A DNA stretch of 64,000 nt. Source: Mesorhizobium sp. B2-1-8. GTDB taxonomy: Bacteria > Pseudomonadota > Alphaproteobacteria > Rhizobiales > Rhizobiaceae. The position numbers and the translations under genes were made by a program. This document shows, in pieces, positions 2,973 through 60,982 of the stretch. The notes below the pieces were generated by a model. It saw nothing but the letters and a program-made list of their open reading frames with translations. It did not search any database and was not told the origin of the DNA. Each line of letters opens with the position of its first letter. Positions within the stretch are counted from its first letter, which is position 1. The stretch covers positions 5,185,501 to 5,249,500 of the forward strand of contig NZ_CP083952.1 of the NCBI RefSeq assembly GCF_006442545.2, read 5' to 3'.

Positions 2973-3833
2973 CTAGACCCCCAACCGGGCGGCGGCGAAA
3001 CGGTAAAGGCCGAACAGGCCGAGCGACAGCGCGATGTTGACCACGGCGATGATGCAGGCGACTTGGTAGGCCGACTCCTGGATCGCCTTGCCGTAGATCA
3101 GCAACGGCAGCGTGATGACACCCTTGGCGCCGATGAACAGCACGATGCCGAATTCGTTGACGGTCAACAGCAGGCACAGGCTGCCGCCGGCGATGAGCGC
3201 CGGAACCGCGGCCGGTAGGATGACCTGGTGCACGATGCGGAACGGCCTGGCGCCGAGCACGCTTGCCGCTTCGATCTGGCCGCGATCGACCAGGGAGAAG
3301 GCGGCAAGCAGCGGCCGCAGGATGAAGGGCGTGTAGACCGTGACCTCGGCCAGCACCACGCCCCATGTCGAATAGAGGAAATCGACGGGCGGCAGCGGCA
3401 GCGAGAAGGCCTCCATCAGCCCGGTGTTGAGCATGCCGGCGGACCCGTAGAGGAAGGTGAAGGCCAGCGTCACCAGGAAAGTCGGCAGCGCGATGAACGT
3501 GTCGATCAGCCGGGCGATGAAGCCGCTGCCGGGAAACGGCACGAAGGCCAGGATCAGCGCCAGCACGAGGCCGACGGCCAGGCATCCGGCTGTCGCCGCG
3601 ACCGAGATCGTCACCGTGTTGATCAGCGCGTTGAGGAAGAACCGCGAATGCAGGACGCGAATGATCTCGGCGGCATTGGCGACGCCGCTATCGTCAAGGA
3701 ATGCCTGCCGGGCAATAAGCGCCAGCGGATAGAAGAACAGCAGCGCCAGCAGGGCCGCCGGCGGCACGATCCAGAATTTGCCGGGTTCCCGCCTGCTGGT
3801 GGCCGGCGAACCGATGGCGACCGCCTCAGACAC
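2973..3833 (-). CDS. phnU: 2-aminoethylphosphonate ABC transporter, permease (PhnU type)
   Basis: A 286-residue inner-membrane permease, partner of the downstream permease. The hydrophobic segment starting FWIVPPAALLALLFFYPL is the first membrane span, and several more follow. The coupling loop near residues 185-205 (AASVLGARPFRIVHQVILP) is the EAA motif. The frame is open to an ATG at 3956, but that extension is arginine-, proline- and cysteine-rich and overlaps the ATPase gene by about 130 bases. I prefer the GTG at 3833: it overlaps the ATPase stop by 8 bases (GTGTCTGA) and is preceded by GGAAG. That tight overlap suggests translational coupling within the phnSTUV operon. Confidence 0.83.
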   Translation of the reverse strand: MSEAVAIGSPATSRREPGKFWIVPPAALLALLFFYPLALIARQAFLDDSGVANAAEIIRVLHSRFFLNALINTVTISVAATAGCLAVGLVLALILAFVPFPGSGFIARLIDTFIALPTFLVTLAFTFLYGSAGMLNTGLMEAFSLPLPPVDFLYSTWGVVLAEVTVYTPFILRPLLAAFSLVDRGQIEAASVLGARPFRIVHQVILPAAVPALIAGGSLCLLLTVNEFGIVLFIGAKGVITLPLLIYGKAIQESAYQVACIIAVVNIALSLGLFGLYRFAAARLGV

Positions 3834-8737: not shown

Positions 8738-10195
8738 TCATGACCAGGGCAGCGAAAACGTCTTCACATTGGTATAGCTCTTCATCGCCTCGATGACGCC
8801 TTCCTTGTAGCCATTACCTGAATCCTTGATGCCGCCGAAGGGCGACATCTCGATGCGGTAGCCCGGCACTTCCCAGATGTTGACCGTGCCGACCTGCAGG
8901 CCGGCGATGTATTTCTGCATGCGGGGAAACGAGTTGGTGCAGACGCCCGACGACAGGCCAAAGGCGGTCGAGTTGGACAGCGCGATCAGTGCCTCGTCAT
9001 CGTCCGGCGCGCGCACGATCGGGATGATCGGCCCGAAGGTCTCTTCCATAACCAGTTCGGATGTGTGCGATACGCGGTCGATGACGATCGGCGGCAACAG
9101 CGCGCCCTGGCGGCCCGGATTGTAAAGGATTTCAGCCCCCTGCTCCGCAGCCATGTGGACGCGGGCTTCGAACAATGCCGCCGCCTTCTCGTGCACGACG
9201 GTGCCAAGGTCGGTCGAGCGGTCCATCGGGTCGCCGAAGCGGATTTTCTTCGCCCGCTCCAGCACCAGCGGCACGAAGCGATCGGCGACGCTCTCCTGGA
9301 CCAGGATGCGCTTGACCGCCGTGCAGCGCTGGCCGGAGTTTTTGGTAGCACCCGCCACGGCGAGATCGGCGGCCTTGGCCAGATCCTCGTCGGAGAGATC
9401 GTTGAGGATGATCAGCGGATCGTTGCCGCCGAGTTCCAGTACCTGACGCTTGTAGCCCGCGGTGCGCGCGATCATCTTGCCAACCGGCACGCCGCCGGTG
9501 AAGGTGATGAGATCGATGTTGTCGTTGGAGATCATCTCGTTGCCGATATCGGCCGGCCAGCCGGTCACAACAGACAGCATTTCCGGCGGCAGGCCGGCTT
9601 CGTAAAGGATGTCGGCCAACAGCAACGCCGTCATCGGCGTCAGTTCGGTCGGCTTCACCACAACGCAATTGTTGGTGGCGATGGCAGGGGCCACCTTGTG
9701 TGAGACCATGTTGAGGGGATGGTTGAACGGCGTGATCGCCGAGATCGCCTTCAAGGGCTCGCGCGTGGTGAAGATCTTGCGCGCCTTGCCATGCGGAGTG
9801 AGGTCGCAGGAGAATATCTGGCCATCATCCTGGATGCACATCTGCGCCGAAAGCGTGAACACGTCATAGGCGCGGCCGACTTCGTAGAGCGAGTCGGTCT
9901 TGGAGATGCCGAGCTCGAGCGTAATCAGATCGGATATTTCTTCCCGGCGCGACGCCAGCGCTTCCGCTGTGCGGAACAGGATCTGCTGGCGCTCGTAGCG
10001 CGTCAGCTTCGACTTGTAGCCGGCGGCGATCTCGAACGCCTGGCGGGCATGCTCGGCACGGCCGGCCGGAACTGTGCCGATGACGGTGTCGTTCCAGGGG
10101 TAACGAACCTCGACCACGCTGTCGGCATCGACTTTCTTGCCGGCAATGCGCATCGGCTCGTGGCGAACTTTGATGGCAGGGTCAAGCTTGGTCAT
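8738..10195 (-). CDS. phnY: Phosphonoacetaldehyde dehydrogenase
   Basis: A 485-residue aldehyde dehydrogenase, the same length as the characterised Sinorhizobium meliloti PhnY. The catalytic nucleophile is Cys291 ([11 protein letters not shown]) and the general base Glu254 (LELGGNDP). Asn158 (TPFNHP) forms the oxyanion site and Lys181 (VVKPTE) contacts NAD. The enzyme oxidises phosphonoacetaldehyde to phosphonoacetate with NAD+. That links PhnW, which makes the aldehyde from AEP, with PhnA, which cleaves the carbon-phosphorus bond. It lies 185 bases after phnA and 71 bases before pbfA on the same strand, consistent with one transcript. The gene is intact. Confidence 0.93.
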
Positions 10196-50951: not shown

Positions 50952-52016
50952 TCAGGCCGCTGTTCGTGCCACGAAGCGTTCAGCGTCCTGCGGTGCGATC
51001 TGAACCCGCAGGATTGCCCTGAGGGCATTGAGACCGAGCAGACGCAGATCCTCGTTGAAGTCGCCGAGCTGTGGCTGCAGCACGATCGCCTCGATCCCCG
51101 CCGCGTTGGCGCGCTCGATAAGGGTCGCCACTGCTCCGTCCCCCGCCGGATCATTGTCGCGGGCGATGTAGAGACGCCGCAGTGTGTCGGGGAACAGGAT
51201 GGCGGACAGATGTGCTGCCGACAGGGCCGCGATCACCGGCATGAAAGGCAGCGCCGTACGCTGTGACAGCATCGTCTCGATGCCTTCACCGGCTGCCATC
51301 ACATCGCAGCCGATGCCGAAGCGGACCGCGTGTCCAAGCAGATCGCCCATGGCTCGCCTGGGAGTGTCGATCGGTGCTCTGCCGAGATGGGCCTCGCTGA
51401 AACCGGCCGGATCGAGCCAGGTGCGGTGTGCGCCTGTAAGCCTGCCTGTCAAGTCAGTGACGGCCGCAATCATCGCGGGCCAGATCTCGGTCGGCGCCTC
51501 CACGTCGGGCCGGTAGTAGCAACGCGGATGGAATCGAAGACTTCCGGTTTCGTGCAAGGCGGTTATTCCACGTCCACGCAGGTACGTCTCCACGAGCGAC
51601 CGTGAGATCGGCTGCGACATAGAAACCAGCCGCCTCGCCGCTTCGGCAGAGCCGGAAGGAGCAGGAACTGATTGCCTTCTGCGTTCAGTTGGATCGGGCA
51701 TCGGTTGGGGCATCGACAAGAAGCTGCGCGCCTCGTCGGCGACGTCCTTGAAGTCGACCAGGCCACACGACGCCCGAATGACGTCGAGCAGATCGCCGTG
51801 CTCGCCAGTTGCCGCGTCGGTCCACTTCCCAGCGACGCCCTTGCCGGACACCGGCCCTTTCAGGCGGACAAACATGGACCGCCCCGGCGTATTGCGCACA
51901 TCGCCGACCAGCCAGTAACGGCCTTGGCGATGACCGTTGGAGAGATAGTGGCTGCAAACTGCCTCGGCCTGTTGGCCGAGACGAGATGCCAGTTCGGAAG
52001 CATCGCGACGGCGCAT
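50952..52016 (-). CDS. Toprim domain protein (primase-like)
   Basis: A 354-residue protein. The N-terminal half has a DUF7146-type zinc-less primase-like region (KWTDAATGEHGDLLDVI). The C-terminal half is a toprim domain: Glu in VMAAGEGIETMLS, and IARDNDPAGDGAV with the aspartate pair. In this family the toprim metal centre supports primer synthesis or DNA cleavage. Position directly after the helicase/methylase gene, with the start overlapping that stop as TGATG, suggests a joint role in replication of the transferred strand. ATG 52016 fits the family start. Confidence 0.83.
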   Translation of the reverse strand: MRRRDASELASRLGQQAEAVCSHYLSNGHRQGRYWLVGDVRNTPGRSMFVRLKGPVSGKGVAGKWTDAATGEHGDLLDVIRASCGLVDFKDVADEARSFLSMPQPMPDPTERRRQSVPAPSGSAEAARRLVSMSQPISRSLVETYLRGRGITALHETGSLRFHPRCYYRPDVEAPTEIWPAMIAAVTDLTGRLTGAHRTWLDPAGFSEAHLGRAPIDTPRRAMGDLLGHAVRFGIGCDVMAAGEGIETMLSQRTALPFMPVIAALSAAHLSAILFPDTLRRLYIARDNDPAGDGAVATLIERANAAGIEAIVLQPQLGDFNEDLRLLGLNALRAILRVQIAPQDAERFVARTAA

Positions 52017-55000
52017 CAGGCTGCCTCCCTCTCGCTGATGCGCTGCACCGGATAGCGCTTGAGAACTTTGTCCAGGATGACGGGTCCCGCGGCATCGGTG
52101 GGAACGAACATGCGTAGCTTCCAGGAAATGATCTCGTGGAAGAGCCCGTAGGCCGAGAGCCGCTCGCGCATGGCGTCGGTGAAGCCCGAAAGCTCGATGC
52201 GGTTGGCGCCCATGACGCGGACACGCCGCAGATGAAGTCCTTCGGCAAGGTCGAGCGTCGTGCGGCCATCGATCAGTGCGTTGAAGGCATCGTCTGCCGT
52301 CAGTGTACTCACACCCGTTGCGAGAGCGCCAGCAGCCCAAACTGCCGAGACCATGCGGCCGATGATGCGCTCGCCGTCATCGCTTTGAAGCCGATAGACA
52401 CGGCTCGACTCGTTCGGGAGCCGCTTCCAGATCGGCAGCAACAGTCCAGCGACGACGTGGATGATCGTATCGGAGAACGCCGGGACGTTGGCGACCTCTG
52501 CATTCCAAGCGGTTGCAAAGGTGTCGCGGTCCACCCGATTCCAATGACTTTCCTCTATCATGCGGAGGGAAGCATGGTGTTGTTCCATCGGGTGGATCAG
52601 GCGGACGCGACGTTCGACCTCGCCATCGTCGAGCATGAGCGATGGCGCTGGAATCTGCACAGCGGCGCGTCCTGAGCGTTCGTTGACGAGCAGAATGGAA
52701 CGCGGATCGTCGCAATAGGCGACAGCCTCCTCACACGACGTCGGTCGATTGCGTTGGCGCTGGGCAATGGTGAGGAGTTGCGTTTCGGCGCCTGTGCCCG
52801 GATGGGAGTAGATCGTGCGCCGGTCGGTGACGACGAAACTCTCCGCCTGCAGCGTCTCCAGCCCAACGTCATAGATGCCGGCGGCGATGGCGCCTTCTAC
52901 CTTGGCGGTGAGCAGTTGCTCGAAGGCCGCGAACAGGACATCTTGCAGATCGATAGTGAGCGCCAGCAGCCGATTGAGGAAGGTGGTGATTGGCGGCAGG
53001 TCATCCTTGATGCCGCTATCGTCCATCAGCTTTAGGCCGGTCGTCTCCTCGAACCGCTGCAGCGAACAGCCCCTCACTTTGCCGCGTACGATCAGCAGAT
53101 AGAGCTGGCGCAGCGCATCGCGCGCATAGTGCGATTCCAGATTGTCCTCTGGCCGGAACAGGCCCTGTCCGCCGGTCTGGCGTTGGCCGCGCGTGATGGC
53201 GCCAAGCGTATCGAGGCGGCGAGCGATGGTGGAGAGGAAGCGCTTCTCCGCTTTCACATTGGTCGCGATTGGCCGGAAAAGCGGGGGTTGCGCCTGATTG
53301 GTCCGGTGCGTGCGACCAAGGCCCTGGATGGCCCTGTCGGCTTTCCAGCCCGGCTCGAGCAGGTAGTGGACGCGAAGCCGCATGTTGCGTGACGACACGT
53401 CGGCGTGGTAGCTGCGTCCTGTCCCCCCAGCATCGCTGAAGACCAGAACGCGTTTCATGTCATCCATGAAGGCCTGCGTCTCGGCGAGATTGGCCGAGGC
53501 AGCGCGGCTCTCAACCATGAGCCGTGCCTTCTTCCGGACGATGCGCCGTGACCTGCCCGTCACTTCCGCCACCATATCCGTGCCGAAGCGCTGGACGATC
53601 TGGTCGAGCGCGCCGGGGACCGCTGGCAGGCTGGCGAGCTTCTCGATCAGCGCCGTGCGGCGCGCGACCGCCTCGCGGCTTTCCACCGGTTGGCCGTCGC
53701 GGAAGACCGGCCTGGACGACAGATTGCCCTCGGAATCGGTGAAGGGCTCGTAGAGCTGGACCGGGAAGGAATGCGCGAGGTAGTCGAGGACATATTCTCG
53801 TGGTGTGATGTCGACGCGGACGTCGTTCCATTCCTGTGTCGGGACCTCGGCCAGCCTGCGCTCCATCAGCGCCTCGCCGGTGGAGACGATCTGGATGACC
53901 GCCGAATGCCCTGCGTCGAGGTCCTGATCAATCGAGCTGATCAGCGTCGGCGTCTTCATCGATGTCAACAGATGAGCGAAGAAGCGCTGCTTGGCGCTTT
54001 CGAAGGCCGAGCGTGCGGCTGACTTGGCCTGGCGGTTCAAGGTGCCGCCGTCGCCAGTGATGTTGGCGGCCTGCATGGCTGCATCGAGATGGTTGTGAAT
54101 GACGGCAAAGGCACCGGCATAAGCATCGTAGATGCGTCGCTGCTCGGGCGTCAGCTCGTGCTCGACCAGCTCATATTCGACGCCGTCGAAGGACAGCGAG
54201 CGTGCCGTATAGAGGCCAAGGGCGCGCAGGTCTCGCGCGAGCACCTCCATCGCTGCCACGCCGCCCGCGTCTATGGCTTCGACGAATTCCGCACGGGTGG
54301 AGAATGGCAGATCTTCACCGCCCCACAGGCCGAGCCTTTGGGCATAGGCGAGATTGTGGACCGTGGTGGCGCCGGTCGCGGAGACATACACGACACGTGC
54401 GCCCGGCAGAGCGTGCTGCAGACGCAGGCCGGCGCGGCCCTGCTGAGATGGTGCGACATCACCGCGTTCTCCCTTGCCCCCACCGGCGTTCTGCATGGCA
54501 TGCGCTTCGTCGAAAATGATCACTCCCTCAAACTCGGAGCCCAACCATTCGACGATCTGCCTGACGCGCGAAACCTTCTCCCCGCGGTCGTCGGAGCGCA
54601 GCGTGGCATAGGTTGTAAACAGGATGCCTTCCGGCAACGTGACGGGGCGGCCTCGAGGGAAACGCGACAGCGGGGTGACCAGCAGACGTTCCATGCCGAG
54701 TGCCGACCAGTCGCGCTGAGCGTCCTCAAGCACTTGTCCGACTTCGAGATCCACACCGCTTTGCGGCGGCCTTGCAGCCAGTTGTCGAGAACGATACTCG
54801 CCGCTTGCCGGCCCTTGCCGAGGCCGGTGCCGTCCCCGATGAAGAAACCACGCCGGAAGCGCACAGCCCCTTCCGCATCCTCCGGCGCGGCGTTGACGAT
54901 ATCGAATGTATCGTCGACCGACCACGATCCGGCGAGAAAGCCCGCATGGGCCTCGCCGGCGAGGATCAGCGTTTCGAGCTGGGCCTCGGAGAGCGACTTC

Positions 55001-56334
55001 AGAATTTCGCTGGGAACCGTCGGTCGATAGCTGGGCTTGGGCGGTGCGACAGAGGCCATGGCGGCGGATTGCACCAGCTTGGTCGGGTGCGCCTGGGAGC
55101 CTGGAATGCGGATCGTCTGCGATCCGTATTCCTCATAGATCGCGTCGGTCAGGCGGGCTCCTTCGTCAGGCGTCCAGTCCACCGTCTCGTAGGCGAGCTC
55201 GACGCCGGCGAGTTTGGAACGTTGCGGACGAGCCGGCACAGCGGCGTCGCGCACGAGATAGCCGCGCACGGTGCGGGATGTCGCGATGGTGGGCACGACG
55301 TTGGCCTGATCAGGGACCGGCAGCCGTGCAGGCACATGCTCGTCTATCCAGCCGAGCAGCGTCGCGACATCCGGTGCAAGACCGGCAGAGGCCGGAAAGA
55401 GAGAGGAATCGCCAGCAGCTACCTTGTCGATAACAGTCAGCCGCGTTTCGATCGTCGTGCCATGCTTGGCGTAGACAGAGCCGCCGATCGTAGCGGTGAA
55501 GACGACCCGACTGTGCTCCTGGAGACGGATGAAGGCGTCACGCCAGGCAGGTGTCTCCGGCCCAAAGTTCGCACCGGTGAGCGTGACCAGGCGACCACCA
55601 TCGGCAAGCCGGGCAAGCGCTGAAGTGACGTGGCGATAGGCTGCATCGGCGGCACGACCCTTGACATTGGCGAGCACGGAAAATGGCGGGTTCATGAGCA
55701 CGACGGTCGGCATGATCGCCGGATCGAGATGGTCATCGATCTGGGCGGCGTCGAACCGGGTGACCGTGAGGGCTGGAAAGAGGGTCGACAAAAGGCCGGC
55801 TCTGATCTCGGCGAGTTCATTTAAAACGAGCGAACCGCCGGCGGCCGCGCCGAGGATGGCGAGCAGCCCGGTGCCGGCGGAAGGTTCAAGTACCCGGTCT
55901 GTGGGGGTAATGGCCGCCGCGGCGACAGCAGCGAAGCCCAACGGGATCGGAGTCGAGAACTGCTGGAACGCCTGGCTCTCCTCGGAGCGGCGTGTATGTG
56001 TGGGCAGAAGCTCGCCAATCTTCCCGAAAAGCGGCAAGGCGCAAGCCGGAGATCCGGCTTTGCGTAGAAGCGACTTTCCGTATTTGCGAAGAAAGAGAAC
56101 GGTCGCCGCCTCGCAGGCGTCATAGGCGGTCTTCCAGTCCCAGGCGCCACTTGCGTCGGACCGGCCGAATGAGGCTTCCATTGCGGCGCGCAAATCGGCT
56201 GTGTCGATACGCTGACCGCGTTCGAGATGGGGAAGGAGAAGCAGCGCCGCCGCGTATATGGCAGCGGCTGGATCGGAAGCCAGGGAAGCAGGTGCAACTG
56301 GATTGACAGTCGCCGTCGGAAACAAAACGTTCAT
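52016..56334 (-). pseudogene. Strawberry-notch-like helicase with N6-adenine methylase domain, frameshifted
   Basis: Rejoined, this would be a protein of about 1440 residues. The first frame (from 56334) carries an N6-adenine methylase (LEPSAGTGLL, then VVLMNPPFSVLAN near residue 205) and the start of a helicase, with Walker A as GDGTGLGKGRQ, ending KAVWISKSDK. The second frame resumes with LEDAQRDWSALGMERLL and carries the DEAH box (VIIFDEAHAMQNAGG), the rest of the SNO-type ATPase and a long C-terminal domain. A single missing base near 54733 explains the switch. Such fusions are thought to protect or process incoming element DNA. In this state the helicase is broken or needs recoding. Confidence 0.82.
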
Positions 56335-56387
56335 TGGGAAGGCCCTCGGGAGAGCGATAACGGAAAGCCCGCCGGCGCTCTCTCTGA

Positions 56388-56408
56388 CCGGACGGGCTCA
56401 AACCCGTC
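56388..56408 (-). promoter_or_regulatory. Leader hairpin upstream of the helicase/methylase gene
   Basis: On the minus strand GACGGG-TTTGAG-CCCGTC forms a hairpin beginning with the same CGTGACGGGT start as the leaders of the ParB and ArdC genes. It lies 54 bases before the start codon. An alternative stem further along (GCCCG with CGGGC, enclosing AGAGAGAG) would compete with it. No T-run follows, so it is not a simple terminator. Confidence 0.5.
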
Positions 56409-56498
56409 ACGGCCTGACTCTCACTCTGATCGTCCGCGCACAAAAAATGCCCGGCGCTCTTCCGAGTGCCGGGCAGTCGATCTGCAAGGATGCTGTGC

Positions 56499-58628
56499 CT
56501 ACTCGGCGGCGTCGAGCTGCGGTTCCTCCTCGTCAGTCACTCCGTCCTCGCCGTCACCCGCGAGGAATTCGGGCAATGGCTCTTCTTCGCTACCCGAGTT
56601 GGCATTGGCCGCCTCCACATCGAGCTCGGCAAGCCGCAGCGGTTCAGGCAGCCAGCCACTGTCGGCCAGGAGTCGCTCCGCCTCCTTGGCCATATCGGCC
56701 TTCTTGAGGTGGTCGATCAGCTGGGCAGCGCCCTCGCCTTCCCCCTCGCGCACGGCCTCGAGGATACGCGCCTTGGTGACGCGGCCGAGATAGTTGCCGA
56801 CCGTCGGCCGCCAGCCGGCGTCAACCATGTCGAGCCCGACTGCGCGGGCCAGGTGGTCGGCCTCGGCAAGTCGCTGCTGCACGCCATGTGCGGAAGTCGC
56901 GCCGTTGCCGTACCGATCGACCCTTTCATAGAGAGCGTTCACGCCGAAGGACGCGCAGTGAGCGAACAACTCGGCTTGCTCGGGGACCGAGAGCGCCGCA
57001 AGCGCATCCCAAAGATCGGCGACGTTGCCTGGGAGACGGGTCTCCCAGGCCTTGTGGCGACCATCGATCGCGCGTGCGTAAGGTGTATCGCGAAGCTCGG
57101 GAGGCTGGGCCGAGAAGACCGTGCCACGGACAGAGACTTCCATCGCCACGCCTTGCGACTTGTAGCGAGAGAAGACGTCACGGACGAACTTGTGCAGCAC
57201 AGCCAGAAAAGCGGCCGCCGGATCGTTTGCGAGTTTGTCGCGCAGCGCCAGCGTACGCTCGGCGGTCAACTCCATGATCAACCGATCCGGCAATGGCTTG
57301 ATGCCATCGTCGTCGTCATCTTCCGGCTCGGCCAGTCGGCTACCGTCGATGGTGATGACGGACCGCCGGACCGGGCCCGTCGCCGCTGGTTCGTTGCCTG
57401 CCTCGACGCTGGGACCGTTGTCACCCTCCGGCGCACCGGGGGCTTCGTCCTCCGGCTTCACATAGCCACGCTCGACGAGAAGCGAGCCGTCCGATTCCAC
57501 GCTGATGAAGACGCCGGCGCGCGCGATGTCGTCCGGGTCGAAACGGGCGGGGCGCGTCTCCAACGCCTTGATCGCGGTTTCAAGTTCACCGAACCGCTGG
57601 TCGACTTCATCGGGCAACTCGTCGGCCTCCTCATATTCCGACTGCAGCATGCCGAACTCGTCACGCAATGCGCCGAGCGTTGCCTGCTCCTCGCCGGAGA
57701 GGTCGACCGGCGTACCATCGAGTTCGCGCAAGCCGTGCGCCGTGCTATAGGGAAAGCTCACCGCGACTTCGATCCACTTCCAGCCTTCGTTGGCGATTTC
57801 GTCGGCCATCACTTGCAGCTTCTCGGTGACAAGACGATCGAGCAGCGGCACATCTTGCAACCACCCGCCATCATCCGACTGGAACAGGTCGCGCAGCATT
57901 TCGCCGCCTGCTGCCTCATAGGCGGCGAGACCCACGAAGACCGCTCGCTTGTCTGAGGCACGGGCGGTGTTCTCGGTTAACATGCGGCGGATCTGGTATG
58001 GCTCCTTCGACCAACTGGTCTTGACTGCCTCCCAGACCTGTTCTTGCCGCGCATGATCGTTGTGGACCGAAAATGCTTCGAGCTGGGCGATCGTCATGCC
58101 GTCTTCGGCGTAGATGTCGAGGAGCGCCGGCGACACGGCGGTGAGCTTGAGACGCTGCTTGACGATGTTGACCGAGATGAAGAAGGCGGCAGCAATCTCC
58201 TCCTCTGACATGCCCTTGTCGCGCATTTCCTTGAAGGCGCGATACGCATCGAGCGGAGGGAGCGGAGCGCGATCCATGTTTTCAGCTAGCGAGACCTCCT
58301 CCGCGAGAATCGCGCTGGAAGAATCGCCGACAACGCAGGGAACGGGCGCGGTCTTGGCGAGCCGCTTCTGCTTCACAAGCATTTCCAGGGCGCGGTAGCG
58401 GCGGCCACCGGCAGGCACCTCGAACATGCCGGTCTCCTGGCCATCGGCATCGAGAACGGGACGGACGTGGATGCCCTGGATCAGGCCGCGCCGAGCGATC
58501 GAGGCTGCAAGGTCCTCGATCGACACGCCGGTCTTGATGCGCCGGACATTGGTCTGGGCGAGAACAAGTTTGTTGAAGGGAATGTCGCGCGAGGGCGACA
58601 GGGTGATCTTTTGAACGGCAGTGGCCAT
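56499..58628 (-). CDS. ParB/RepB-like partition or nuclease protein
   Basis: A 709-residue protein with a ParB N-terminal domain (NVRRIKTGVSIEDLAASIA, PAGGRRYRALEML, then SLAENMDRAPLPPLDAYRAF) and a central helix-turn-helix region (MSEEEIAAAFFISVNIVKQRL). The C-terminal 400 residues are acidic and unassigned. Large ParB-like proteins of this kind are standard in rhizobial ICEs and plasmids and probably help maintain the element. No ParA gene was found in the window. ATG 58628 (GGAG upstream) follows a structured leader. The frame is intact. Confidence 0.88.
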   Translation of the reverse strand: MATAVQKITLSPSRDIPFNKLVLAQTNVRRIKTGVSIEDLAASIARRGLIQGIHVRPVLDADGQETGMFEVPAGGRRYRALEMLVKQKRLAKTAPVPCVVGDSSSAILAEEVSLAENMDRAPLPPLDAYRAFKEMRDKGMSEEEIAAAFFISVNIVKQRLKLTAVSPALLDIYAEDGMTIAQLEAFSVHNDHARQEQVWEAVKTSWSKEPYQIRRMLTENTARASDKRAVFVGLAAYEAAGGEMLRDLFQSDDGGWLQDVPLLDRLVTEKLQVMADEIANEGWKWIEVAVSFPYSTAHGLRELDGTPVDLSGEEQATLGALRDEFGMLQSEYEEADELPDEVDQRFGELETAIKALETRPARFDPDDIARAGVFISVESDGSLLVERGYVKPEDEAPGAPEGDNGPSVEAGNEPAATGPVRRSVITIDGSRLAEPEDDDDDGIKPLPDRLIMELTAERTLALRDKLANDPAAAFLAVLHKFVRDVFSRYKSQGVAMEVSVRGTVFSAQPPELRDTPYARAIDGRHKAWETRLPGNVADLWDALAALSVPEQAELFAHCASFGVNALYERVDRYGNGATSAHGVQQRLAEADHLARAVGLDMVDAGWRPTVGNYLGRVTKARILEAVREGEGEGAAQLIDHLKKADMAKEAERLLADSGWLPEPLRLAELDVEAANANSGSEEEPLPEFLAGDGEDGVTDEEEPQLDAAE

Positions 58629-58640
58629 CGGGGTTTCTCC

Positions 58641-58685
58641 ACGACGGGCGCCGAGAGCCTCTCTCTCGGTCCTGAACCCGTCACG
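58641..58685 (-). promoter_or_regulatory. Two-stem leader RNA upstream of the ParB-like gene
   Basis: On the minus strand the outer stem pairs GACGGG (58677-58682) with CCCGTC (58643-58648). The inner stem pairs CCGAGAG (58663-58669) with CTCTCGG (58651-58657) around the loop AGAGG. It ends 12 bases before the start codon, next to the GGAG ribosome binding site. The same two-stem plan with different inner bases precedes the ArdC gene. Confidence 0.6.
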
Positions 58686-59101
58686 AAATCCCTTCAATCC
58701 TCTTCCTCTCCTTCCTTCGGGCTTGACCCGTCACGCCGCTGCCGTCAGCAGCGGCGTGCAGGATGCGTTCGCCCTCCGGGATGCTCCCAGTCACGCGGGC
58801 AGCCTCCGCATAGACCGAGATCGGGTGTCGGCCGGAAAAAAGGAGATCGCGTTCGATGGTCATGCCGAATGGCAGGCGGATCGATTGCAATTCCGAGAGG
58901 CTGAAGGAGCCAAGCTCGGTGCAGCCGAAACCGAGATCGGCCAGCCCGAACAGGGTGTCGCCATCCTCGTCGAGTTCAGTCGCGAGCCATGCGCCGGCGC
59001 CGAGCGGATTGAAGAAGCGGACAGCCGGGACGTGGTCCGCTTCGCGGCGGTGGCCATTGGCGAGAAGGCGCTCGTGTAGGGTCTGGGCACAGCAGGATCA
59101 T
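58681..59101 (-). pseudogene. DUF2958 family protein, frameshifted near the start
   Basis: From ATG 59101 (overlapping the ArdC stop as ATGA) the frame reads MILLCPD and is then lost. The rest, HERLLANGHRREADHVPAVR, then FFNPLGAGAWLATELDEDGD and SFSLSELQSIRLPFGM, is in another frame and continues to 58681. One extra base in the three-G run at 59079-59081 (plus-strand view) explains it; removing it gives a complete DUF2958 protein of about 139 residues. DUF2958 genes regularly follow ArdC-like genes in conjugative elements; function is unknown. Confidence 0.78.
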
Positions 59102-60060
59102 GCGGCTCTCCTGTCGTCACCCGCATCCATCTCAAACGGCAGCGCGCCATCCTCAGGTAGGTGACTGAGAAGCCAATCGGCCGCCTTGCTGGCCTGGCTG
59201 GCGGCGCGCACGATGGCGCGGTTGTCCTCTCGCAGCACCTCGAGCCAAGAGCCTATGTAGTCAGCATGCCGTACCGAGGGCACGATGCCGAGCGCGGCGC
59301 AGCAGAAAGCTGCGTTGATCTCGGCAACGAGTTCCTCGAACGCATATTTCTTCGTCCCAAAGGAGCCGGAGAAATCGCGGGCGAGGCGTGAGGCATGACC
59401 TGTGGCATGACCAAGCTCATGCAGCGCTGTGCGATGCCAGTTGATCGGCTCGAAATAGGCTTGCGGGGGCGGCACCTGAACGCAGTCTCTTGCCGGCACA
59501 TAAAAGGCATTGTTCCCGCCGATACGGAATTCGATGCCGGTGCCTTTGATCAGCGCCTTGAGCCGAGGCTCGATCAATCCGGCGTCCGGGAGTGGCGGCA
59601 AAACTTCCATTTCCTCGGACAAACCTTCACATTGCTCGATGTTGAAGACAGTGAAGCGCCTGAGGAATGGAACCGCCCTGGCATCCTCGCCGGTCTCGCC
59701 AGCGCGCTTCTTCTCATCGTTCGGGATAAAGCGATCCGCATAGACAATAGTGGTGCCATGCTCGCCTTTCCGGACATTCCCACCGAGCACTTGTGCCTGT
59801 CGGAAGGTCAGCCAGCTTTGCGTCCGATAGGCGCGCTCGATGACGGCGCCCCAGAGGATGAGCACGTTGATCCCACTATAGGCTCTGCCGGTGCTGGCGT
59901 TCTTCGGCAAACACAGCGGCGCCTTCGCGGCGGCGGTCCCCCACGGCTGGACCCAAGGGAAACGACCTGCCTCCAACTCGGCGATAATCTTGTTGGTGAT
60001 GTCGTCATAGAGGTTGGTCCGGTCGGCAACGACGCGGGCTCGATTGCTTTGATAGGACAT
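59098..60060 (-). CDS. ArdC-like antirestriction protein (zincin-like metallopeptidase domain)
   Basis: A 320-residue protein. The N-terminal 140 residues match the ArdC single-strand DNA-binding domain (DITNKIIAELEAGRFPWVQP, then YSGINVLILW). The C-terminal domain has the zinc-peptidase motif HELGH at residues 214-218 with a further acidic cluster (EELVAEINAAF). ArdC proteins protect incoming single-stranded DNA from host restriction during conjugation. It heads the minus-strand maintenance module and has a structured leader just upstream. The frame is intact. Confidence 0.9.
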   Translation of the reverse strand: MSYQSNRARVVADRTNLYDDITNKIIAELEAGRFPWVQPWGTAAAKAPLCLPKNASTGRAYSGINVLILWGAVIERAYRTQSWLTFRQAQVLGGNVRKGEHGTTIVYADRFIPNDEKKRAGETGEDARAVPFLRRFTVFNIEQCEGLSEEMEVLPPLPDAGLIEPRLKALIKGTGIEFRIGGNNAFYVPARDCVQVPPPQAYFEPINWHRTALHELGHATGHASRLARDFSGSFGTKKYAFEELVAEINAAFCCAALGIVPSVRHADYIGSWLEVLREDNRAIVRAASQASKAADWLLSHLPEDGALPFEMDAGDDRRAA

Positions 60061-60071
60061 CGCGGTTCTCC

Positions 60072-60117
60072 GCGACGGGCGTCGGAGGCCTCTCCTCCGG
60101 CTCTCTACCCGTCACGA
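60072..60117 (-). promoter_or_regulatory. Two-stem leader RNA upstream of the ArdC-like gene
   Basis: On the minus strand GACGGG (60108-60113) pairs with CCCGTC (60074-60079), enclosing CGGAGG (60094-60099) paired with CCTCCG (60083-60088) around the loop AGAGG. The start codon of the gene follows 13 bases later, after GGAGAA. The same architecture before the ParB-like gene differs in four of the inner pairs while keeping pairing. Confidence 0.6.
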
Positions 60118-60559
60118 AAAAACCGCTCGCACTCTCACTCTCGATTTTCGAAGATCGGGAATCGCCAGCAGGAGGGGAGCCCACCCCCGAGGCACCTCAT
60201 GAGGCCGGAGGCCTGAGTTGCCGGCACTCGTCGCATCGCGAGACTGCCCGCACATCATGGTGGATCCCGCCGTTTTTAACGCCAGAGGGTCCCAATCACC
60301 GCACGAGCGATTTGATCCCGTTCACAGATCGCTCTCATGCCCTTACATTTCCGGTCAGATAATCGCCTCGCGGTGAGAAGTCTTCTCGGACCGGTCCCTT
60401 CGCCAAAGGGTCGAGAGCGATTGTCCAATGGTCGGGGTCGACTGCCGGCCAGATCGCGCGATCGAGCGGCTTACTGATCGGTGTCGGATCCATCGCAGAG
60501 GCATAGTCCTCAACAGTAGCGCGCAGCTTAATTCTTCTGCGCGTGCGGAAAGGCAAGCC
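60118..60559. other. Divergent gap between ArdC and the excision/integration genes
   Basis: This 442-base region separates the minus-strand maintenance module from the plus-strand recombination genes and must hold promoters for both. It contains a palindrome near 60198-60219 (CTCATGAGGCCGGAGGCCTGAG). A minus-strand frame at 60335-60571 (78 codons) has no recognisable domain. Confidence 0.4.
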
Positions 60560-60982
60560 ATGACGATCCAAGAGCAGTTGGACGACGATACGCCGCTACG
60601 GCTCAACATAGCTGCCGATATCGCCTTTCCGGACGGCTCTATGGGGGCGGCAGGTCTGCGAAAAGAACGAGATGCTGGCCGTCTTCAGACAGAGTTGATC
60701 GCAGGCAAGGAATACGTCACTTTGGCGGCGATCGCAAAAATGAGAGAGCTATGCCGCGGACGTCGAAAGGGGCGCGCCTCGTCTGGCGTGCCGAAAGCAG
60801 AAGGGCGGACGGAAAGCTGCGCAACGCAGCCGGCTGGTTCATCCGCGATGGCGCAACCTTCATCAGCGCTTGTGGCGGCACTGGCGACCGCGAACGCGCT
60901 GAAAAGCGGCTCGCCAGTCACATCACGGAAAAATATCGGCCGGCCCGCGAGCGCGGTCGTGATCCCGCCACGGTCCCGGTAG
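60560..60982 (+). CDS. Putative excisionase/recombination directionality factor
   Basis: A 140-residue protein starting MTIQEQLDDDTPLRLNIAAD. The segment FPDGSMGAAGLRKERDAGRL followed by ELIAGKEYVTLAAIAKMREL has the winged helix-turn-helix look of excisionase-type factors encoded just before integrases in rhizobial elements. The C-terminal 65 residues are Ser/Ala-rich and basic. ATG 60560 was chosen, preceded by GGAAAGG. The gene overlaps the integrase start by 232 bases in another frame, and the tail ending ASAVVIPPRSR seems to be genuine sequence. Function is inferred from position and fold pattern. Confidence 0.6.
   Translation: MTIQEQLDDDTPLRLNIAADIAFPDGSMGAAGLRKERDAGRLQTELIAGKEYVTLAAIAKMRELCRGRRKGRASSGVPKAEGRTESCATQPAGSSAMAQPSSALVAALATANALKSGSPVTSRKNIGRPASAVVIPPRSR

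Follow-up and report, generated by a model that had tools for sequence, protein, structure and literature searches.

A candidate cis-acting leader RNA in front of genes for establishment and maintenance in alphaproteobacterial plasmids and integrative elements

Introduction

Few systems are known that give fast, transient expression of anti-restriction and maintenance genes when a mobile element enters a cell, and those that are known act on transcription. A 64,000-nt stretch of Mesorhizobium sp. B2-1-8 (NZ_CP083952.1, positions 5,185,501 to 5,249,500; this whole stretch is called the window below) carries an ardC gene, a parB-like gene and a helicase gene on its minus strand. A first-pass annotation of the letters had proposed that related RNA structures precede all three genes and could control their translation together. 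Here we ask whether these structures exist as described, whether relatives keep their pairing and on which strand, and what they might do.

Results

Two leaders of one type precede ardC and the parB-like gene

The ardC gene (59098-60060, minus strand; Pfam domains ArdcN, PF08401, and MPTase-PolyVal, PF18818) starts 6 nt past a leader at 60067-60120, which we call type I. Its outer stem pairs 60117-60108 with 60079-60070 and encloses an inner stem, 60100-60094 paired with 60088-60082, whose outermost pair is a mismatched C-A and whose loop, AGAGG, occupies 60093-60089. The Shine-Dalgarno sequence GGAG lies at 60068-60071, with its first two bases within the outer stem, and a AGAGNNAGAG box with the letters AGAGTGAGAG is found upstream of the leader at 60132-60141. 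The parB-like gene (56499-58628, minus strand; ParB_N, PF02195) starts 7 nt past a second type I leader at 58636-58689, which is likewise preceded by a box, with the letters AGAGGAAGAG, at 58700-58709. In both leaders the outer stem begins CGTGACGGG and GGAG sits at its foot. The two-stem structures that the first-pass annotation had drawn for these genes are thus present letter for letter on the minus strand at the positions claimed.

Beyond the letters, each leader was judged by its fold against shuffled sequence and by its match to R1, a covariance model built from 11 aligned leaders (those of the window plus others from four plasmid records and one further genome); the family as a whole was judged by its covariation. 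None of 200 shuffles folds as well as the ardC leader (z -4.24); the parB-like leader is weaker when taken alone (z -1.96, equalled by 9 of 200 shuffles). R1, run on the window at E up to 1, matched exactly these two leaders, which are themselves among its training sequences, so that both match by construction. Because the GTGACGGG word is only mildly enriched in the window (6 occurrences vs 2.5 expected, with 6 reached in 4 of 100 shuffles), the case for the leaders rests on comparison. A stretch just upstream of the parB leader, GTGACGGGT at 58727-58734 (minus strand), was considered as a further copy and rejected: R1 gives no match there, and the surrounding sequence has no stable fold (z 0.59).

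Between ardC and the parB-like gene, at 58741-59100 on the minus strand, is a remnant without an intact frame that presumably resembles a DUF2958 protein. On the other side, a phage-type integrase gene (PF00589; 60751-62061, plus strand) diverges from ardC, which may place the ardC side of the module close to where the element ends.

A leader family bound to a small set of genes

To sample relatives of the ardC locus, we took the best 80 of 573 confirmed relatives, chosen by protein similarity alone (73-78% identity). In these best 80 loci R1 found 185 leaders at E<=0.001, at least one in every locus, and all 185 lie on the strand of the gene. Each is followed by an ATG, at 6-8 nt in 184 cases and at 2 nt in one. 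From 5' to 3', the plan of the family is a AGAGNNAGAG box, about 11 nt of spacer, and the outer stem enclosing the inner stem with its AGAGG loop; GGAG sits where the outer stem closes, and the ATG comes after another 6-8 nt.

Pooling over three sets of loci, some of which overlap and which include the window and the training sequences, gave 340 matches; duplicates were merged afterwards. Six of these matches are cut off and 15 lack an open reading frame of 50 aa. By eye, 14 of the 15 nevertheless have an ATG at 6-8 nt: ten end at the edge of their locus, and in L166, L055, L184 and L185 the ATG is in place and the frame is short. In L194 alone no ATG stands at this distance. A reading frame follows 275 distinct leaders, every one with GGAG at its place, and these precede ParB-like genes (112), ArdC (112), a protein of about 186 aa (26), DUF932-like proteins (19), a 131-aa protein (3) and three singletons. 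The DUF932 label is the records' own annotation; two of the proteins scanned score below the Pfam cut-off of 23 bits (21.0 and 17.5), and a third representative has no Pfam match. The protein of about 186 aa, which recurs behind the leader at L088 13347 and 25 others and has no Pfam match in the one representative scanned, is a candidate new establishment gene.

We considered whether the leader is a recently spread repeat. The nearest non-identical leader precedes the same gene family in 193 of 216 cases, compared to 69 when labels are shuffled, although the leaders of DUF932-like genes cluster less clearly by gene (9 of 19). Among the 275 distinct leaders, no sequence precedes two gene families. 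Since the leaders group by gene and none is common to two families, they are gene-bound elements and a recently spread repeat is ruled out; by their sequences, the copies look old and maintained.

As a control, we examined 142 genomes drawn from across the class, of which 17 contain 24 loci with the ArdC domain PF18818. Only six of the 24 have the leader, indicating that it marks a subfamily and its module rather than every ArdC. A loose pattern, GTGACGGG-N-CCCGTC, was unsuitable for counting; it matches 131 of 289 genomes, and a reversed control also matches often.

The purine box has a fixed place

Allowing the form RGAGNNAGWG, the box precedes 221 of the 273 leaders that could be searched over 60 nt of upstream sequence (the other two of the 275 were too short), and its end lies 10-12 nt before the leader in 217 of those 221. 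The strict AGAGNNAGAG form accounts for 214 of 273. On the opposite strand the box was found in none of the 273 upstream windows. The window itself has four strict boxes, compared to an expectation of 1.6 by mononucleotide shuffling; three of them precede the ardC, parB-like and helicase genes.

Two roles for this region were tried and rejected. As a ribosome standby site pairing with the 16S tail, the box scores from -5.4 to -12.0, compared to a mean of -9.65 for random purine 12-mers. A small hairpin within the box-to-leader spacer is equally unsupported, the mean energy of 130 distinct spacers being -3.06 vs -3.00 (sd 0.19) in shuffles. We also observed by eye that more short hairpins recur up to 120 nt upstream of the ardC leader, in L097, L102, L105 and similar loci; an example is GGGGGAAAGCCTTCCCCC in L097.

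Pairing is kept by compensatory changes

The first-pass annotation had inferred covariation from two copies, and this was borne out in larger sets of leaders, by their pairing, by changes on both sides of pairs and on a tree. In 93 distinct leaders of the ArdC loci, drawn from the best 150 of the 185 matches, standard pairs make up 98.9% of pair cells, and both sides have changed in 9 of 17 pairs. In 95 distinct leaders of other loci, 98.0% of cells are paired, compared to 31-57% with slid partners, and 11 of 17 pairs have changed on both sides. Fitting these alignments to R1 favours the R1 structure, and R1 also has a preference for G-U over A-C. On a tree of 205 leaders, pairing is kept in 30 of 31 double changes (both sides on one branch), whereas controls slid by 1-3 columns keep it in 0-3 of 1-7. 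Of 221 single changes, 175 leave the pair intact, compared to 48 of 101 up to 103 of 139 for slid partners, a rate not far above the best control.

A stricter test was weak: ranking by APC-corrected G-test covariance against two tree-based nulls leaves only 1 of 17 pairs at E<0.05, although the five best pairs in this ranking are all structural.

The fold is kept on the sense strand

Over 208 distinct leaders, 484 pair cells are G-U and 32 are A-C, and one inner position of the outer stem has U-G more often than any other pair (143 of 208). Because G-U is so far above A-C, the sense strand is the strand whose fold is kept. As predicted folds, 203 of 205 leaders are better on the sense than on the antisense strand. 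By these sequence criteria, such a bias would be predicted by an RNA of the coding strand and would not be predicted by a double-stranded palindrome or by a hairpin of the template strand. The preference for the sense strand persists with DNA parameters (mean -16.2 vs -11.1 kcal/mol for antisense). The strand bias alone is therefore compatible with a fold of sense single-stranded DNA, which weakens the argument for RNA only and somewhat raises the rival explanation of single-stranded DNA discussed below.

When the leaders are folded up to the ATG, the GGAG has a mean predicted unpaired probability of 0.15, compared to 0.42 when the whole upstream sequence is shuffled once (n=269). On this prediction, the default state of the leader may be read as translational OFF.

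The helicase gene has a related but different leader

The annotation had also taken a hairpin at 56388-56408, before the helicase gene, for a simpler copy of the same RNA. The hairpin is present as letters. However, R1 has no match before the helicase gene of the window at E up to 1, and few sequences keep the exact local GACGGG..CCCGTC hairpin (4 of the 36 helicase leaders aligned and 9 of the 67 matches of the model described below), so this claim did not hold. Instead, the sequences indicate that the helicase gene has a related but different, longer leader, type II. In the window it spans 56328-56415 on the minus strand (R2, 77.3 bits, the window being a training sequence), behind a AGAGNNAGAG box with the letters AGAGTGAGAG at 56418-56427. 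It contains GAGAGCG at 56382-56376, complementary to CGCTCTC at 56356-56350, and then GAGG at 56347-56344 and the ATG at 56334.

That ATG opens the first part of a strawberry-notch-like helicase (54520-56334, minus strand; N-terminal part of AAA_34, PF13872), whose frame is broken. The gene occupies two overlapping frames at 52016-56334 (minus strand), with AAA_34 divided between both, as the result of either a real frameshift or a sequencing error.

The helicase start could be placed by protein in 35 of 105 sequences, and we read 33 distinct upstream regions by eye. Nearly all have an AGAG box, some with AGTG as its second half, and nearly all have a GGGACGGG-like start and a GAGAGAG run; the start departs in L071 and L086. 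GAGAGAG and GCTCTCC are present in all 36 aligned helicase leaders, which were chosen partly by a pattern requiring these words. A model built from the 36, R2, gave 67 matches in 93 sources, 37 of them in training loci. A helicase-like frame lies downstream of 58, and the end of the locus cuts five. The others are one match before an ArdB-type anti-restriction gene (PF03230), two before the same DUF6878 protein, and one, in L003, before a frame that by eye looks like a helicase with an internal deletion.

In 53-58 of 55-58 distinct type II rows, GAGAGCG can pair with CGCTCTC, and both hardly vary, while a nested top hairpin that would compete with their pairing is paired in 39-57 of 55-58 rows. 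From these sequences, a pseudoknot next to the GAGG site is possible. Covariation in type II is weak, with 4 of 16 pairs changed on both sides and a covariation term of -0.61 kcal/mol. In a second ardC/parB module of the same genome (L178 4755; C1, about 3.306 Mb), the box and the opening bases of a type II leader are recognisable; beyond them the sequence diverges.

Distribution

R1 matched 20 of 289 genomes drawn across the class (E<=0.01) and 89 of 397 genomes of the order (E<=0.001). In a sample of the phylum whose share outside the class is unstated, it matched 30 of 349 genomes, all in the class of the window or closer. The genome of the window has six R1 copies, two of them within the window. 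The leader was found in Hyphomicrobiales, Sphingomonadales and Rhodobacterales, as well as in Caulobacterales and Rhodospirillales, represented by L087 and L083. Among 72,556 PLSDB records, the ardC leader has 97 matches and the parB leader 144; the 120 rows among the matches listed all bear alphaproteobacterial names. No match to the parB leader was found among 50,697 phage records or 20,395 E. coli records, and an exact pattern search matched 2 viral contigs.

Several individual loci deserve mention. Four loci of Paracoccus and Erythrobacter (L133, L134, L135 and L140) have identical match positions and scores, which suggests very recent transfer of the module. On a 6.5-kb Sphingomonas plasmid (L206), in which no ArdC or ParB is annotated, a leader at 3366-3419 precedes a frame similar to the DUF932-like proteins; this frame is absent from the PLSDB gene table. 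In L142, the leader at 9095 is followed by a frame that starts parB-like and continues helicase-like, as after an internal deletion (by eye).

Discussion

Our findings indicate that ardC and the parB-like gene have leaders of the same RNA-like type in front of them, as had been proposed, and that the third member of the supposed set, the helicase leader, is related yet different. The broader proposal, a shared cis-acting RNA that acts on translation, is well supported by the compensatory changes, the G-U signature of the sense strand, the spacing to GGAG and ATG and the predicted sequestration of GGAG. As expected of a cis-regulatory leader RNA, conserved structure with compensatory changes is found in type I, and less strongly in type II, and the position upstream of the genes on the sense strand is fixed. 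We consider it probable, on this comparative evidence, that type I and type II leaders are one kind of cis-acting RNA in the 5' UTRs of genes with which alphaproteobacterial plasmids and ICEs establish and maintain themselves. The leader family is best read as a translational control element common to establishment genes.

Three other explanations deserve weight. The leader could be a single-stranded DNA promoter of the Frpo kind, a hairpin in the incoming strand at which RNA polymerase starts, giving a burst of expression in the recipient. The genes served are those expected early after entry, several copies stand before several genes, a simple sigma-70 scan of the minus strand at 56000-60760 found no promoter-like site, and the leaders can fold as DNA too. 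The analogous EGeRS1 of pLS20 is described as preceding ardC without a constitutive promoter (PMC8708921). Such a promoter, however, needs its hairpin on the antisense (template) strand, whereas the kept fold is on the sense strand, as the G-U over A-C cells (484 vs 32), the better sense fold in 203 of 205 leaders and the common U-G pair (143 of 208) all testify. In addition, GGAG lies in the stem at a fixed distance from the ATG and would be lost from a transcript that started at or after the hairpin, and the G+C-rich stems hold no -10-like element by eye. We regard a single-stranded promoter as unlikely.

The same strand signature bears on a double-stranded operator or promoter, in which a transcription factor would bind the box and the inverted repeat. 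Letters of the box and the outer stem are indeed conserved beyond what pairing needs, and EGeRS2 of p576, which lies before establishment genes, is described as holding a strong promoter (PMC8708921), but an inverted repeat should show A-C as often as G-T, and the position of the leader is tied to GGAG and ATG rather than to a promoter. This explanation is, in our judgment, unlikely. Lastly, the hairpin might be a constitutive feature that merely stabilises the mRNA or insulates the gene from read-through, as EGeRS1-B of pLS20 is described to prevent read-through expression (PMC8708921), and no ligand or factor for the leader is known. Against this, the near-invariant outer stem, the AGAGG loop and the fixed box exceed the needs of a plain stable stem, and sequestering GGAG would be costly for a constitutive gene; we hold a purely constitutive role to be quite improbable.

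How might a translational control element of this kind work? In its default fold, GGAG would be held in or against the stem, and translation would start poorly. Pairing alone would not require the outer-stem letters, the AGAGG loop and the box to be as constant as they are, which suggests, from conservation, that something recognises them. A trans-acting factor reading the repeated AGAG elements and the near-invariant outer stem could open or lock the leader; alternatively, a change of fold could do so. All genes with the leader would then respond together, and type II would add its strictly kept GAGAGCG/CGCTCTC complementarity beside the GAGG site. Expression may also be timed to entry into the recipient, given that the genes concerned encode the anti-restriction proteins ArdC and ArdB, ParB-like and DUF932-like proteins and the helicase. 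A bolder and decidedly tentative version is an establishment regulon at the RNA level, in which a dedicated factor, protein or small RNA, would recognise the AGAG box and the loop in type I and type II leaders alike, and translation of the anti-restriction, ParB-like, DUF932-like and helicase genes would be switched together when a cell lacking the factor is entered.

Frpo and the ssi of F and ColIb-P9 are single-stranded promoters, hairpins before leading-region genes that act as DNA; in the leaders described here, by contrast, it is the sense strand that keeps the fold, in a fixed relation to GGAG and ATG. The radC motif is related to mobile elements. Rfam 15 has 0 matches at gathering score in the 64,000 bases of the window; at E up to 10, the stretches with the three leaders of the window give only low-scoring unrelated families, and neither STAXI nor radC matches there. 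The radC motif (RF01754), which resembles the leaders in this respect, is listed as a candidate cis-regulatory RNA of Proteobacteria (PMC2864571). STAXI is described in the same paper as a candidate structured RNA with a pseudoknot near anti-restriction, SSB, integrase and topoisomerase genes; it differs in consisting of tandem pseudoknot repeats, often with UUCG loops, and the section on it names no tie to a ribosome binding site or start codon (PMC2864571).

The closest published idea is EGeRS1, an establishment-gene regulatory sequence of the Bacillus plasmid pLS20, which is described as lying upstream of the ribosome binding site of ardC and other establishment operons (PMC8708921). According to the passages concerned, it has no detectable promoter and blocks read-through, and its authors left open whether it acts as RNA or as single-stranded DNA (PMC8708921). 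EGeRS1 and our leaders are alike in being repeated, structured, relatively G+C-rich and directly upstream of the ribosome binding site, with several copies per element (PMC8708921). EGeRS1, however, is Gram-positive and is given as about 325 nt common to all five copies plus up to 180 more (PMC8708921), whereas the leaders here are about 54-90 nt, with covariation and a sense G-U signature; the two are set apart by description only. In the passages of a paper on leading-region anti-defence genes (PMC11541004), the word ArdC is absent. Among the matches listed in our literature search, which covered mostly open-access papers without preprints, no title or beginning of an abstract described the element.

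The leader provides a marker for finding establishment genes, including those for the protein of about 186 aa and the DUF932-like proteins. A translational RNA element common to the whole module would be a different solution to expression on entry, found across five alphaproteobacterial orders. If the tentative regulon described above is true, it would amount to zygotic induction by translation rather than by transcription.
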